Positions 31,207 to 36,044 of a stretch of 36,044 nucleotides of DNA are shown in pieces (position 1 is the first letter of the stretch; each line of letters opens with the position of its first letter). The stretch spans positions 1 to 36,044 of the IMG/VR virus record IMGVR_UViG_3300032334_000189; one strand, given 5' to 3'. Under the pieces are notes generated by a model. It saw only the letters and a program-made list of their open reading frames with translations. It was not told where the DNA came from and searched no databases. This DNA comes from a virus. Position numbers and translations under genes: made by a program.

Positions 31207-31226
31207 AAAAAAAAATTTTGTGCGGG

Positions 31227-31546
31227 GTCACCGTCACCGTGACCGGTCGCCCCCGGCCCTCCCCCGCCCCCTCGGCGCGTGGCGGAAGCGGCTGGCTGGC
31301 CCTTGGCGGGGTGGCGGTTTGGCCCTAAGTCGTTGATTTCATTGCGTTTTCGTCGCGGCGGCCGACCGTAACGGCGTTCGTGCCAAGCGTAACAGGGTCT
31401 GTTACGGCCATCGATATGTTTACGGCGGAGGATGCGTCCGCCATCGGCCTAGGATTCATGCGGGTTCGCGGGTTGCTTGGCGTCAATACATACCTTCTCA
31501 CTTACCGTAACCGGCGTAACATCAACCGTAACAGCGTCTGTTACGC
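31227..31546. repeat. GTNAC site cluster in terS 3' end and terS-terL gap
   Basis: Ten GTNAC pentamers lie in 320 bases: GTCAC/GTCAC/GTGAC at 31227, 31233 and 31239 (6-bp spacing, forming the inverted repeat GGTCAC-N7-GTGACC), GTAAC at 31368 and 31389, GTTAC at 31401, and GTAAC/GTAAC/GTAAC/GTTAC at 31507, 31516, 31528 and 31540. Chance would give about one. Several extend to CCGTAAC/GTTACGG as in the 33.2-kb cluster. In terS they fall on Val-Thr codons. Location in and after terS is where pac sites of headful phages lie. Confidence 0.7.
31325..31444 (-). other. Possible 39-residue frame in the terS-terL gap
   Basis: An ATG at 31444, five bases after the terS stop, opens a frame to TAG 31325-31327. 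The product contains AVTDPVTLGTNAVTVG, like the VTDAVTVDVTPVTV end of TerS. No clear ribosome site is present and the Val-Thr pattern follows from the GTNAC repeats, so it may be non-coding. The rest of the 242-base gap (31207-31324) is very GC-rich with no frame. Confidence 0.2.
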
Positions 31547-31994
31547 CGAGCAGCGGCGTGTCCTGCTCGACGATCTCGGCCTCGATGATGCGAGCCTGAG
31601 CCTGCGCGAGCGCGTCGGTGATGCTGATGTTGGCGCTCAACTCGATCTGGCGCGGTGCTTCGGTCCAGCGCATTTGCGTCTTCGTCCACCAGATGAGCGA
31701 GGCGACGTCGCCGGACATTGCCTTTTGGTAGAGCGTCTTGCCGATCCCGGCGTGAGCTTTAGCGCGGCCTTGCTCAAGATTTTCCTTAAACCGCTCGCGC
31801 AAAGTCGAGACGCCAATCCCGCCGCGAATCAACGATGCGATGTGCGCCTCAGCAACGCCATAACCAGCCATTGCCTCAACTTGCTTGCGTTCTTCGTCCG
31901 TTGGTTCGAAGCGGGGGCGGCCCGAATTCGGCCTCGCACCACCGTGTCGATTTTGTTGTTTCTGACTTTCAACTTCCATTTGCCGATAACTCAT
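31449..31994 (-). CDS. terS: Terminase small subunit
   Basis: A 181-residue protein immediately before terL. After a basic N-terminus (GGARPNSGRP) comes the typical PTDEERKQVEAMAGYGVAEA, then HIASLI...STLRERFKENLEQG as helix-turn-helix and YQKAMSGDVASLIWWTKTQM, as in small terminase subunits. The C-terminal 40 residues (from about 148) are Val/Thr-rich and coincide with the GTNAC cluster. It recognises pac and guides TerL. It overlaps the methyltransferase gene by 26 bases; ATG 31979 is an alternative start, and neither has a strong ribosome site. Confidence 0.88.
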   Translation of the reverse strand: MSYRQMEVESQKQQNRHGGARPNSGRPRFEPTDEERKQVEAMAGYGVAEAHIASLIRGGIGVSTLRERFKENLEQGRAKAHAGIGKTLYQKAMSGDVASLIWWTKTQMRWTEAPRQIELSANISITDALAQAQARIIEAEIVEQDTPLLGVTDAVTVDVTPVTVSEKVCIDAKQPANPHES

Positions 31995-33165
31995 TGAATG
32001 TTTTGGAGTTTTCCTGGCACACTGCTTGCTTTCCTGTGTAGTCCTGCCATCTCTTAATTATGACGTCACAATATTTTGGGTCAAGTTCCATCATCCTGCA
32101 TTGCCGTGCTGTTTTCTCACAGGCTATCAGCGTAGAGCCGGAGCCGCCAAACAGGTCAACCACAACATCGTCTGGCTTTCCCCATTTATCAAAGAACCAT
32201 TTATGCAACGCTATCGGTTTTTGAGTTGGATGAACTCGATTCTCCGATTTTTCCTTAGCAGTAAACCCGGACCATAAAAAACGAGCGACCATACGTTTAT
32301 GCGGGATCATTGACCAGCAAAGTTCGTAACCAGTTCCAATGCTTTCGTCTAAATCTTCTTTTTTCTTATCCCAAACCACCCAAGAACCGCCTTTAGGCAA
32401 GGTTTGGCAATAATAATCTGCCCCCCACCAAAAGTGTTCCCTTGCATTTTTGAAGTATTCAAAAAAAAATGAAGGATCAAAATCCTGATCGTCACCAATC
32501 ACTTGGGAGTAGATTTTTCCTTTTACTTTTTCCGTTTGAGCGTAGTTTGTATCCAGATTCATGCCATATGGTGGGTCCATATAAACAAAATCAGCCTTCC
32601 GCCCATCCATCAGCGTATCAACCGCGTCAATCGACGTAGAATCGCCGCACATCAGTCGATGCTGCCCTAGTATCCAAATGTCGCCCAATCGCGTTGTAGG
32701 CTCATCTGGAGCCTCTGGAACGGCATCCTCATCCGTCAACCCAGGTTCCACCTCCAACGGCGTGAGCGCATTGATCTCATCAAGGGAAAAACCAGTCAAA
32801 TCTAAGTCAAACCCTGCCTCGCCCAGCTCCTTAAACTCAAGGGCCAGCATCTCGTTGTCCCATCCGGCGTTTAGGGCCAATTTGTTATCGGCCAGGACGT
32901 AAGCCCGCTTCTTCGCGTCGCTCCATCCTCGGGCCACCATGACCGGCACTTCACGCATCCCCAGACGCTTCGCTGCCATCGTCCTGCCGTGACCGGCGAT
33001 GATCCCCCCATCTTCATCTACCAACACTGGGGTAGTCCACCCCCACTCTTTGATGCTGGCAGCGATCTGCCCTACCTGCTCATCCGAGTGCGTCCTGGCG
33101 TTCCTCGCGTAGGGAATCAATTTTTCAATCGCCCATTTCTCAATTTTCTCTGCTGGATCCGTCAT
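31969..33165 (-). CDS. ParB-like domain fused to beta-class DNA methyltransferase
   Basis: A 398-residue fusion. Residues 5-95 form a ParB/Srx-like domain with GHGR at 58-61 and ADNKLALN at 92-99. The methyltransferase part has CGDSTS (173-178), MDPPYGM (DPPY 197-200), HPTQKP (312-317) and VVDLFGGSGST (335-345). The order DPPY before FGGSG marks the beta class of N6-adenine/N4-cytosine enzymes. No restriction partner is near. Such fusions occur in phages, where methylation may protect DNA or control packaging or replication. ATG 33165 is used; GTG 33174 is possible. Confidence 0.93.
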   Translation of the reverse strand: MTDPAEKIEKWAIEKLIPYARNARTHSDEQVGQIAASIKEWGWTTPVLVDEDGGIIAGHGRTMAAKRLGMREVPVMVARGWSDAKKRAYVLADNKLALNAGWDNEMLALEFKELGEAGFDLDLTGFSLDEINALTPLEVEPGLTDEDAVPEAPDEPTTRLGDIWILGQHRLMCGDSTSIDAVDTLMDGRKADFVYMDPPYGMNLDTNYAQTEKVKGKIYSQVIGDDQDFDPSFFFEYFKNAREHFWWGADYYCQTLPKGGSWVVWDKKKEDLDESIGTGYELCWSMIPHKRMVARFLWSGFTAKEKSENRVHPTQKPIALHKWFFDKWGKPDDVVVDLFGGSGSTLIACEKTARQCRMMELDPKYCDVIIKRWQDYTGKQAVCQENSKTFNELSANGS

Positions 33166-33220
33166 TTCCCCCACTTTCCCCTAAAAGTGAAACCTTACCG
33201 TACCGTATCACTCCGCATCG

Positions 33221-33270
33221 TACCGTAACACCGTAACACTCTAAAGAGTGTGTTACGTTACGTTACGGTA
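33221..33270. repeat. Large nested inverted repeat
   Basis: TACCGTAAC (33221-33229) and GTTACGGTA (33262-33270) are perfect complements. Inside them ACACTCT and AGAGTGT (33236-33242 and 33245-33251) also pair perfectly around AA, and CCGTAAC (33231-33237) faces GTTACG (33252-33257). The whole can form a long stem or cruciform, or present inverted binding sites. Confidence 0.85.
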
Positions 33271-33331
33271 AACTCGCCTTTGCCGCCGTAACAATGTTAC
33301 GGCATGTTACGGCTTGTTACGGTTGTTACGG
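33223..33331. repeat. Iteron-like GTTACGG / CCGTAAC array
   Basis: In 109 bases there are ten GTNAC sites. CCGTAAC occurs at 33223, 33231 and 33286; a tandem GTTAC of 5-bp period starts at 33252, 33257 and 33262; and GTTACGG occurs at 33296, 33306, 33316 and 33325. The last four are spaced 10, 10 and 9 bases, so they lie on one face of the helix. The stretch is flanked by GTACCGTA variants (33189-33225) on one side and an AT-rich stretch (33332-33350) on the other. It fills the 195-base gap between the primase and methyltransferase genes and contains no frame. Origin iterons or operators are the likely meaning. Confidence 0.85.
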
Positions 33332-33360
33332 ACTAATTTTTAGAACTAAATCCCTTTCCC

Positions 33361-35223
33361 TTAGCCTAGTTTTTCCATAAGCCTTTTGGATAGCACTGTA
33401 TTTTTAACCAGCCACCCCTTGTCATGCTTGCCTATAATTTCAGCATCCGTCAGATCCCTGATGATCATTCCCGGCCTGGCTGAAGCCTTCAAGTGCTGGT
33501 CTACCGAATTGGTTTTGACACCCTGCTCCAGCAAAAACGTCTTGAACGCCTCTCGGCTGACGTAAGGCATCTCATCCATCACTTCCGCCCCACCGACGAA
33601 CCAAGCCCGCTCCAAGTTGGCCTTGTGCTCGGCCAGCTTGTCTTCCTTTGGTTGTGGCATCCGAAGATCGCCCTCTTGAAACATCTCAAACACCGCCCCA
33701 GGCAGCGGCAACCCATCCTCATCCTGCCAACCTAGATCCACTGGGCTTAAGCACCCATGCAAATCCTTCGGTTCCGGCGCGTCTTTCTGCTTAGTACAAC
33801 TCACAATAATCTCGTGGGTCTTGCCGTGAACCAAGATACTCGCGTCCAATGCCCCTCGCCACGCGCTAGAACCCCGCGCACGCTGTTTTGACTCCGAGTT
33901 GTGGCCTAAGTGGTGGATCAACATTGTCGTCGCACTGAGGGCCATTGAGACGATATTGCAGGCATTGATCATCGCTCGGGTGTCTTTGGCGCTGTTCTCG
34001 TCGCCGCTCATATGGTTGTTGAGCGTATCGATGTTCACGAGCGCGACTGGCTCGGACGTTAACGCACGCACCGCGGCGATCACTTCTGTCGCTGCGCCTG
34101 GGCCGTCCAGATCAATTGCTTTGTTGCTGATCAGCAGGTTGTCGAGACTGGTTACGTTGTTACGCCGGCACCAGCTCGCGATACGCTGGCGCATCCCGTA
34201 GTTACCTTCACCTGCCAGGTAGACAACGATGCCGGGTTTGGTTCTGATACCGCCCCACGGAATACCGCTGGCAATGCAACAAGCCATGTCCAACGCAACG
34301 AATGTCTTACCCACTCCAGACTCGCCATACATCATTGCCGTGGCGTATGCCGGCAGCCACCCCTTCACAATCCACGGCACGGGGCTTGGTTGGCCCAGGA
34401 AGCTCGTTGCGCGGGTAAGGAAATAGTCTCGGGTTGGCTCGCCCTCTAAAAGCCGTTCTGCGGCCTCTGAGCCGATTGCGCTGCTGGCTGCAACATCCGT
34501 GTCTGGCTCGTACCGCGTGACGGATCTTGCGATCTGCTTGATCTCGCTGCTCGGCAAGGGGATCTCGCACCGGGTTTCGTTGGCGACGCTGATCGCGGCC
34601 AGAATCTCGGCTTCGGTCATGCCAAACGAACGCATCGCACCGGCTAAGCTCGTCAGACCATCGTTACGGTTGCCTTGGATCAGCTCCCCGCTGGTCGTTG
34701 GCGTGGCTTTGCGCCGGCCTAGATGCGGCATCCACACTTCAGGTATCGCACTAGGTGCTACACCATCGAACGGATCGCTGGAAGCCTCCCACTCGTAGCC
34801 GCGCTCCTCGATTGTTGATGGGTACACGATGAAGTAGCGCCCGTCTGACAAAAGGTCAATGCCATCGGCCAGCTTGCAGGATCGGATGCCATCAAGATGC
34901 TTGGCAACGTAATGCTGGCCTCCGCCCGCGGTGAGCGCCATCACGCCGTCACGGATCTGACCGTGATCCGAGATCCATTGCTGCCAACTGGCATCACCAC
35001 CGTTGCGTGGGTCAATATCAAACACCACGATCCCACTGGCGCTACCGCAGGCAATGCCGATGTTCAGGTTCGGGTTTTGGGTCCACCAGCGCTTGATCTG
35101 CTCTGGGTCTGTGGTTGCGTCGTTGACCCCGTGAGCGGTGGCCGGCACCTTACCGTTGGGCACTACCGGTAGGACGAACCAGCCCCAGGAGACGTAGGTC
35201 AGGGCGGCGTCAATCTTGTTCAT
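33361..35223 (-). CDS. Primase-polymerase fused to RepA/DnaB-like helicase
   Basis: A 620-residue replication protein. Residues 1-165 form a bifunctional primase/polymerase (prim-pol) domain with GKVPATAHGVNDATTD (24-39), the catalytic FDIDPRNGG (Asp69, Asp71) and TAGGGQHY with His104. A PriCT-like linker (about 183-235) follows, then a RecA-type ATPase with GESGVGKT (300-307), Walker B-type LVNIDTL (395-401) and HHLGHN (437-442). Prim-pol plus helicase proteins start replication at origins in plasmids and phages. ATG 35223 lies inside the end of the Cro-like gene (14-base overlap). The GTNAC array lies directly after its stop. Confidence 0.9.
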   Translation of the reverse strand: MNKIDAALTYVSWGWFVLPVVPNGKVPATAHGVNDATTDPEQIKRWWTQNPNLNIGIACGSASGIVVFDIDPRNGGDASWQQWISDHGQIRDGVMALTAGGGQHYVAKHLDGIRSCKLADGIDLLSDGRYFIVYPSTIEERGYEWEASSDPFDGVAPSAIPEVWMPHLGRRKATPTTSGELIQGNRNDGLTSLAGAMRSFGMTEAEILAAISVANETRCEIPLPSSEIKQIARSVTRYEPDTDVAASSAIGSEAAERLLEGEPTRDYFLTRATSFLGQPSPVPWIVKGWLPAYATAMMYGESGVGKTFVALDMACCIASGIPWGGIRTKPGIVVYLAGEGNYGMRQRIASWCRRNNVTSLDNLLISNKAIDLDGPGAATEVIAAVRALTSEPVALVNIDTLNNHMSGDENSAKDTRAMINACNIVSMALSATTMLIHHLGHNSESKQRARGSSAWRGALDASILVHGKTHEIIVSCTKQKDAPEPKDLHGCLSPVDLGWQDEDGLPLPGAVFEMFQEGDLRMPQPKEDKLAEHKANLERAWFVGGAEVMDEMPYVSREAFKTFLLEQGVKTNSVDQHLKASARPGMIIRDLTDAEIIGKHDKGWLVKNTVLSKRLMEKLG

Positions 35224-35383
35224 GGTCTGCACGTAACTTGCCCTCGGTCTTGACTTCAATCTCGTACTGCCTGCCCATGGGTGGCCTGTCTCCCCATCTA
35301 TAGATCACCTGGGGCCAGACCCCAAGCGCATCGGCGAGCTTCTTGAGCCCCCCGAAATGCTCGATTGCTTCCTTGGTCGTCAC
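35210..35383 (-). CDS. Cro/YdaS-like repressor, GTG start
   Basis: A 57-residue helix-turn-helix protein: EAIEHFGGLKKLADALGVWP forms helix 2 and the turn, then QVIYRWGDRPPMGRQYEIEV the recognition helix and end. This is the Cro/YdaS type (LAxALGVxPQxxxxWG). GTG 35383 is chosen because AAGGTGG lies five bases before it and the longer frame upstream has no similarity. It faces the early genes and probably binds the dyad at 35411-35444. No separate CI-type repressor is present. Confidence 0.85.
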   Translation of the reverse strand: MTTKEAIEHFGGLKKLADALGVWPQVIYRWGDRPPMGRQYEIEVKTEGKLRADHEQD

Positions 35384-35769: not shown

Positions 35770-36044
35770 TGGCAATCCAACTTAAACGCACCAAAGAGGC
35801 GACCGCGCAAGCGGTCAAGCTCTTGGTCTATGGTCAAGCTGGGGCGGGCAAGACCAGCCTCATCCCGACGCTGCCTGCGCCGGTCATTCTGAGCGCTGAG
35901 GGCGGGTTGCTGAGTATCGCTGATACCAACCTGCCCTTCGTGGAAATAACGTCAATTGGCGAGCTGCAAGAGGCCTATAAATGGCTCACGAGCAGTGCTG
36001 AAGCCAACGAGTTTGAGTCTGTGGCGCTTGATTCAATCTCTGAA
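35769..36044 (+). CDS. Sak4-like AAA ATPase, N-terminal part (continues at base 1)
   Basis: The first 92 residues, cut by the end of the window; the frame goes on at base 124 of the left end. Walker A is GQAGAGKT at residues 22-29, followed by LPAPVILSAEGGL, in which the 'SAEGG' after strand 2 is typical of this phage ATPase family. ATG 35769 shares a base with the upstream stop and follows six G at a good distance. See the entry at 1-519 for function. Confidence 0.85.
   Translation, partial: MAIQLKRTKEATAQAVKLLVYGQAGAGKTSLIPTLPAPVILSAEGGLLSIADTNLPFVEITSIGELQEAYKWLTSSAEANEFESVALDSISE
35922..36044. repeat. Direct terminal repeat, right copy
   Basis: Identical to bases 1-123. It marks the overlap of a closed circle and implies a genome of about 35,921 bp. 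Confidence 0.95.

Follow-up and report, generated by a model that had tools for sequence, protein, structure and literature searches.

Here, we describe a repeat array directly downstream of a prim-pol/helicase gene in an aquatic phage genome and propose, with a probability of about 0.82, that it is the replication origin of the phage (or an initiator-loading site), whose iterons would be bound by the predicted C-terminal winged helix of the prim-pol protein. Both the origin reading of the initial annotation and its nomination of the prim-pol protein as a candidate binder are strongly supported, as the C-terminal domain of this protein and the unit of the array change together in relatives. 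Recognition word and reading domain have most likely been exchanged between related phages as one small cassette, to judge from the aligned genomes.

Parts of the array in the window

The window analyzed here, 36,044 bp long, comprises an entire virus record. It probably represents a complete circular assembly, because it carries an exact 123-bp terminal direct repeat (1-123 and 35922-36044) and a Sak4-like gene spans its ends. The array is flanked by a prim-pol/PriCT_1/AAA_25 helicase gene, the proposed initiator (33361..35259, minus strand; Pfam PF09250, PF08708, PF13481), and a ParB_N/N6_N4_Mtase gene (31969..33174, minus strand), and is co-directional with both. Its placement between these genes by the initial annotation was right, though it occupies only about 110 bp of the 186-bp gap (33175-33360) that it was said to fill. 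The reported GTNAC cluster is real: ten sites at 33225-33329, all GTTAC or GTAAC (GTWAC), fall within 105 bp, compared with a maximum of 5 GTNAC or 4 GTWAC sites per 109-bp window in 300 simulated genomes (first-order Markov, modelled on the window). CCGTAAC/GTTACGG occurs 8 times against a simulated maximum of 2 in any 109-bp window, and TGTTACGG occurs 11 times in the whole window against 1.06 expected, with 7 of the 11 copies inside the array.

Read along the gene strand (minus), the array begins with four direct CCGTAAC units 9-10 bp apart, R1 (33325..33331), R2 (33316..33322), R3 (33306..33312) and R4 (33296..33302), whose GTTACGG starts at 33296, 33306, 33316 and 33325 give the spacing of 10, 10 and 9 bp that had been described. 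An inverted unit, r5 (33286..33292, plus strand), can form a short hairpin with R4 and is followed by a non-repeat core, GGCAAAGGCGAG (core 1; 33273..33284, minus strand), that is kept in relatives with different units. Three overlapping direct units come next (R6-R8, CCGTAACGTAACGTAAC; 33252..33268, minus strand). These form the GTTAC triple with a 5-bp period that was noted initially, and its presence stands, but the middle copy looks optional, other unit classes usually having two units 9-10 bp apart. The conserved hairpin ACACTCTTTAGAGTGT (33236..33251 on the gene strand) varies in its arms while pairing is kept; no T-run follows it, and terminator prediction did not call it as a terminator. 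Beyond it lie two inverted units, r9 (33231..33237) and r10 (33223..33229), both on the plus strand, and a second non-repeat core, CGATGCGG (core 2; 33213..33220, minus strand), again conserved in relatives. The nested inverted repeat of the initial annotation was recovered with 19-nt arms (33213-33231 and 33250-33268) that are 84% complementary, whereas the two non-repeat cores had been overlooked.

Two further features named at the outset proved less useful. An AT-rich stretch does lie beside the array (33332-33365, 68% AT), but it is incidental and not a constant part of the array, since in most relatives the first unit includes the stop codon of the prim-pol gene (TAA in most with GTAAC units). 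Across the family we found no constant AT-rich unwinding region, the mean peaking at 63% AT 60-79 bp beyond core 2. Cumulative GC skew, put forward as a check for an origin, was uninformative because it is confounded by divergent transcription: in 12 of 14 genomes, 1.1-2.9 kb separate the minimum from the array, and in the window the minimum falls at the divergent promoter.

Variation of unit and domain among relatives

Searching IMG/VR with the prim-pol sequence and with an alignment of related proteins yielded 124 distinct gene/downstream sequences, mostly from metagenomic contigs, many of them fragments, with unit labels partly assigned by eye; a scan of prokaryote genomes picked up largely remote primases and pointed to no clear host. 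Of the relatives that extend far enough beyond the prim-pol stop codon, nearly all have the array immediately behind it or behind one inserted gene. The order of parts is conserved as four direct units about 10 bp apart, an inverted unit, GGCAAAGGCGAG, direct units, the hairpin, two inverted units and CGATGCGG. The unit itself occurs in about 16 versions (GTAAC, GTCAC, GTAGC, CGTAC, CGTACC, GTACC, GGGACA, GGTACA, GGTTCA, CGATAC, AGAACA, GGTAAC, GTAACC, GGGAAC, GCCCCT and CGGAA), and within a genome most copies, direct and inverted, switch as a set. Unit spacing, both cores and a hairpin whose short loop resembles TTTA or TATA are retained across these changes, so that the comparison with related phages suggested by the initial annotation found layout and spacing conserved and the unit sequence replaced. 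On a quickly built tree of the helicase domain only, in which some branches are long, we counted at least 17 changes of unit among 16 types.

The array and the prim-pol gene need not touch, since a gene lies between them in some relatives. Seven sequences (L009, L015, L029, L030, L035, L046 and L053) have such a gene, or the contig end, at this position, and in several of them visual inspection shows a PP-loop-like SFSGGRTSAYM motif at the start of the inserted gene. In L215 (6094-6390), a phage contig in which no prim-pol gene was detected, a GTTACGG array occurs together with a hairpin and with GGCAAAGGGGGCG, which resembles core 1; this is perhaps the same origin style used with another initiator, and other GTTAC arrays occur in L164, L169, L211 and L219.

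Similar-style, unannotated arrays also lie directly 3' of the helicase gene in cultured phages, namely Alteromonas phages PB15 and XX1924 (unit GGTTCA, the gene being annotated as a TOPRIM domain protein), Idiomarinaceae phage 1N2-2 (GGTACA) and Salicola phage CGphi29 (GGGGACA), all of which share the helicase and C-terminal region with the query (residues 275 to ~620-632, 38-41% identity). Roseobacter phage CRP-406 has an array of CTGGAAA units, with a protein match limited to the helicase core (296-509); its array lies inside an annotated hypothetical ORF, CRP406_2 (L411, PV211008.1, 161-487), which may be a spurious call across a putative origin. Given these arrays in cultured phages, putative origins of this style also occur apart from the prim-pol domain.

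The prim-pol protein is mostly conserved among relatives except for its last ~90 residues, which are variable. This region holds the domain that we propose as unit reader on the grounds of structure models and its variation with the unit (aa 541-631; 33367..33639, minus strand). It is modelled as helix-strand-helix-helix-helix-strand-strand (pLDDT 86.9), a predicted winged helix, and the winged helix and a linker (534-539) are also visible in the full-length model, for which overall confidence is low (pLDDT 66). Foldseek against solved structures gave a weak best match (E 0.07) to CRP-type winged helices, searches of Pfam, PHROG and PDB profiles with the domain returned no named family, and its best viral match is another prim-pol protein. 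Within its third helix (aa 599-605; 33445..33465, minus strand), Thr604 tracks the GTAAC unit: Thr occupies this position in 51/51 GTAAC-type proteins, including that of L275, and is absent from it in every other unit class tallied. All 37 GGGACA proteins have Arg at residue 598.

We compared pairs of proteins at least 95% identical over residues 13-528 and scored C-terminal identity over residues 541-622. This identity was 0.83-1.00 in 187 pairs sharing a unit and at most 0.70 in 9 pairs with different units. The weight of the sequence evidence lies with two independent contrasts. In one, the GTCAC phages L054 and L055 are 99.0-99.6% identical to GTAGC phages before the domain and 51-52% within it; for L054 and the GTAGC phage L237, the values are 99.0% for the N-terminal part, 50.6% for the C-terminal part and 99.3% for the small terminase TerS. 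The DNA of these two phages is about 90-98% identical either side of an island of ~420 bp (-250 to +170 around the stop codon, 48-78% identity), which contains both domain and array and in which the cores and the hairpin loop are still recognizable. In the other, L275 (GTAAC) and L276 (CGTACC) are 98.5% identical in the N-terminal part and 69.5% in the C-terminal part. A third, looser contrast is provided by AGAACA phages within the GGGACA group (N-terminal identity about 0.81, C-terminal about 0.48). Generalized from these genomes, the picture would be one of a widespread phage family with an interchangeable ~420-bp origin cassette that passes by recombination between otherwise near-identical genomes, so that at least 16 groups of origin specificity result; we advance this wider claim tentatively, with somewhat less than even confidence.

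Candidate readers and alternative functions

The initial annotation had also considered a partition site and named the ParB-like domain of the neighboring methyltransferase as a possible binder. A partition or methylation-related site bound by this ParB_N domain would agree with the adjacency in the window and with a ParB_N match that passes the Pfam cut-off, yet only 37 of 90 relatives have the methyltransferase gene immediately after the array, and it was not detected in that position in the others. The array is kept in the 53 of 90 where another gene follows, so the link between site and parB gene expected of a ParB/parS system was not found, and the unit follows the prim-pol C terminus, which argues against the methyltransferase as reader. 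We therefore abandoned both suggestions, judge the gene to lie outside the system and hold this reading to be extremely improbable. Equally hard to credit is a packaging (pac/cos) site bound by TerS: for all that terS is often close to the array (the next gene in 32/90) and has a second GTTAC cluster at its end, TerS is nearly unchanged between the GTCAC phage L054 and the GTAGC phage L237, and yet only 70% identical between two GTCAC phages. Although L054 and L057 differ in unit, as do L055 and L237, their Cro proteins are 100% and 97.7% identical, respectively, and near-identity in pairs with different units led us to reject both Cro and TerS as readers.

The protein domain changing together with the unit also speaks against a structured RNA (attenuator or small RNA) with stems that pair while the sequence drifts. 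The inverted units and hairpin could fold as RNA, but R1-R3 switch with the set although no inverted partner is left to pair with them, the unit spacing corresponds to one DNA helical turn, and Rfam covariance models gave no match to the array up to E = 1, making this explanation very unlikely. The C-terminal domain might instead bind the array only as an operator, repressing transcription that runs across the array into the downstream gene, or limiting its own mRNA, while replication starts elsewhere. This would suit an intergenic array that is co-directional with its neighbors and includes a hairpin, but downstream genes differ among relatives, some of which have an extra gene between prim-pol and array, nothing resembling a promoter was detected within the array, and its ten phased units with two cores and a hairpin are more than an operator usually has. 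We consider an operator on its own unlikely, though the array may have an operator function beside its function as an origin.

Separate from the array, the cluster near terS comprises seven units with at most 1 mismatch (31366-31546) at the 3' end of the gene and just beyond. It recurs in GTAAC-class genomes in which terS was located, and GTCAC and GTAGC relatives showed no counterpart; it may serve as a further binding site or simply reflect the Val-Thr-rich tail of TerS. A GC-rich stretch between terS and terL (31207-31330) contains GTCACCGTCACCGTGACCGGTC beside an A/T tract, with a core conserved in the relatives read, and is possibly a terminator or packaging site.

Proposed mechanism and known systems

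Returning to the array as an origin read by the prim-pol protein, we infer physical binding, ring loading, initiation at the array and a role for the hairpin as follows. The winged-helix domain would bind the units as double-stranded DNA, first at the four copies nearest its own gene, which are helically phased, and next at the copies either side of the hairpin. Binding would load rings of the prim-pol/RepA-type helicase, the DNA would open around the conserved cores and hairpin, and the fused primase would start synthesis, with the hairpin serving, at a guess, as a priming or opening site. With word and reading domain travelling as a cassette, relatives would fall into origin-specificity groups.

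Several known replicons share elements of this arrangement. SaPI Rep and SCCmec Cch2 have a C-terminal domain that binds double-stranded DNA and short iterons directly downstream of the helicase gene, and the isolated C-terminal domain of Cch2 reads a 5-nt iteron (PMC7581432). Iterons lie directly 3' of the helicase gene here too, but the SaPI/SCCmec helicases are of the D5/Primase_Cterm or DUF927 type, in contrast to the RecA-fold AAA_25 (RepA-type) helicase found here, which is fused to an AEP prim-pol, or to a TOPRIM-annotated primase in the Alteromonas phages, and is paired with a fixed two-part origin layout with a hairpin and two cores. In turn, pRN1 has a stem-loop origin directly downstream of a prim-pol/helicase/winged-helix gene, and specific binding of its replication protein to the origin was sought and not found (PMC4234260), which by analogy would count against origin binding here. 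As in pRN1 and at the proposed origin of phage BIP-1, a single protein here carries prim-pol, helicase and a predicted C-terminal winged helix, its gene is immediately followed by a stem-loop, and conservation is low in sequence but high in structure, whereas those systems have an SF3 helicase and a stem-loop of about 100 nt without iterons in place of AAA_25 and iterons (PMC4234260). The alpha protein of satellite P4 couples primase and helicase and binds origin repeats through a C-terminal winged helix (PMC4234260). The prim-pol protein resembles it in being a primase-helicase with a (predicted) C-terminal winged helix and repeats at the putative origin, but Pfam did not identify a P4-type primase with an SF3 helicase here. 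P4 has two separate iteron sites, ori and crr, both of them needed; the GTTAC cluster near terS would be a second site in GTAAC-class genomes, but GTCAC and GTAGC relatives showed no such cluster. We know of only one unit in P4 and of no family-wide unit turnover. Among lambda-type O proteins, close relatives have different iterons matched to initiator specificity. Close relatives among geminiviruses likewise carry different iterons matched to Rep specificity (PMC12548392). Unlike the protein described here, geminivirus Rep and lambda-type O are initiators unrelated to prim-pol, and geminiviruses use rolling-circle replication. The principle is known; the open-licence papers searched yielded no description of these arrays, and none of the phage family, its layout and type of helicase, the extent of unit turnover or the cassette-like exchange.

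The array and prim-pol protein provide a testable origin and initiator for an aquatic phage group, several of which are cultured and for which none of the annotated records inspected marks an origin. About 16 DNA words with matching domains on one helicase constitute a data set on DNA choice by winged helices. For lambda, it is reported that the phage can be arrested by ectopic copies of its own origin (PMC4488673). If cassette exchange is true, switching could avoid titration of the initiator by co-resident satellites, prophages, plasmids or competing phages. Pairs of phages that differ in little else offer material on the divergence of replicons into compatibility groups.
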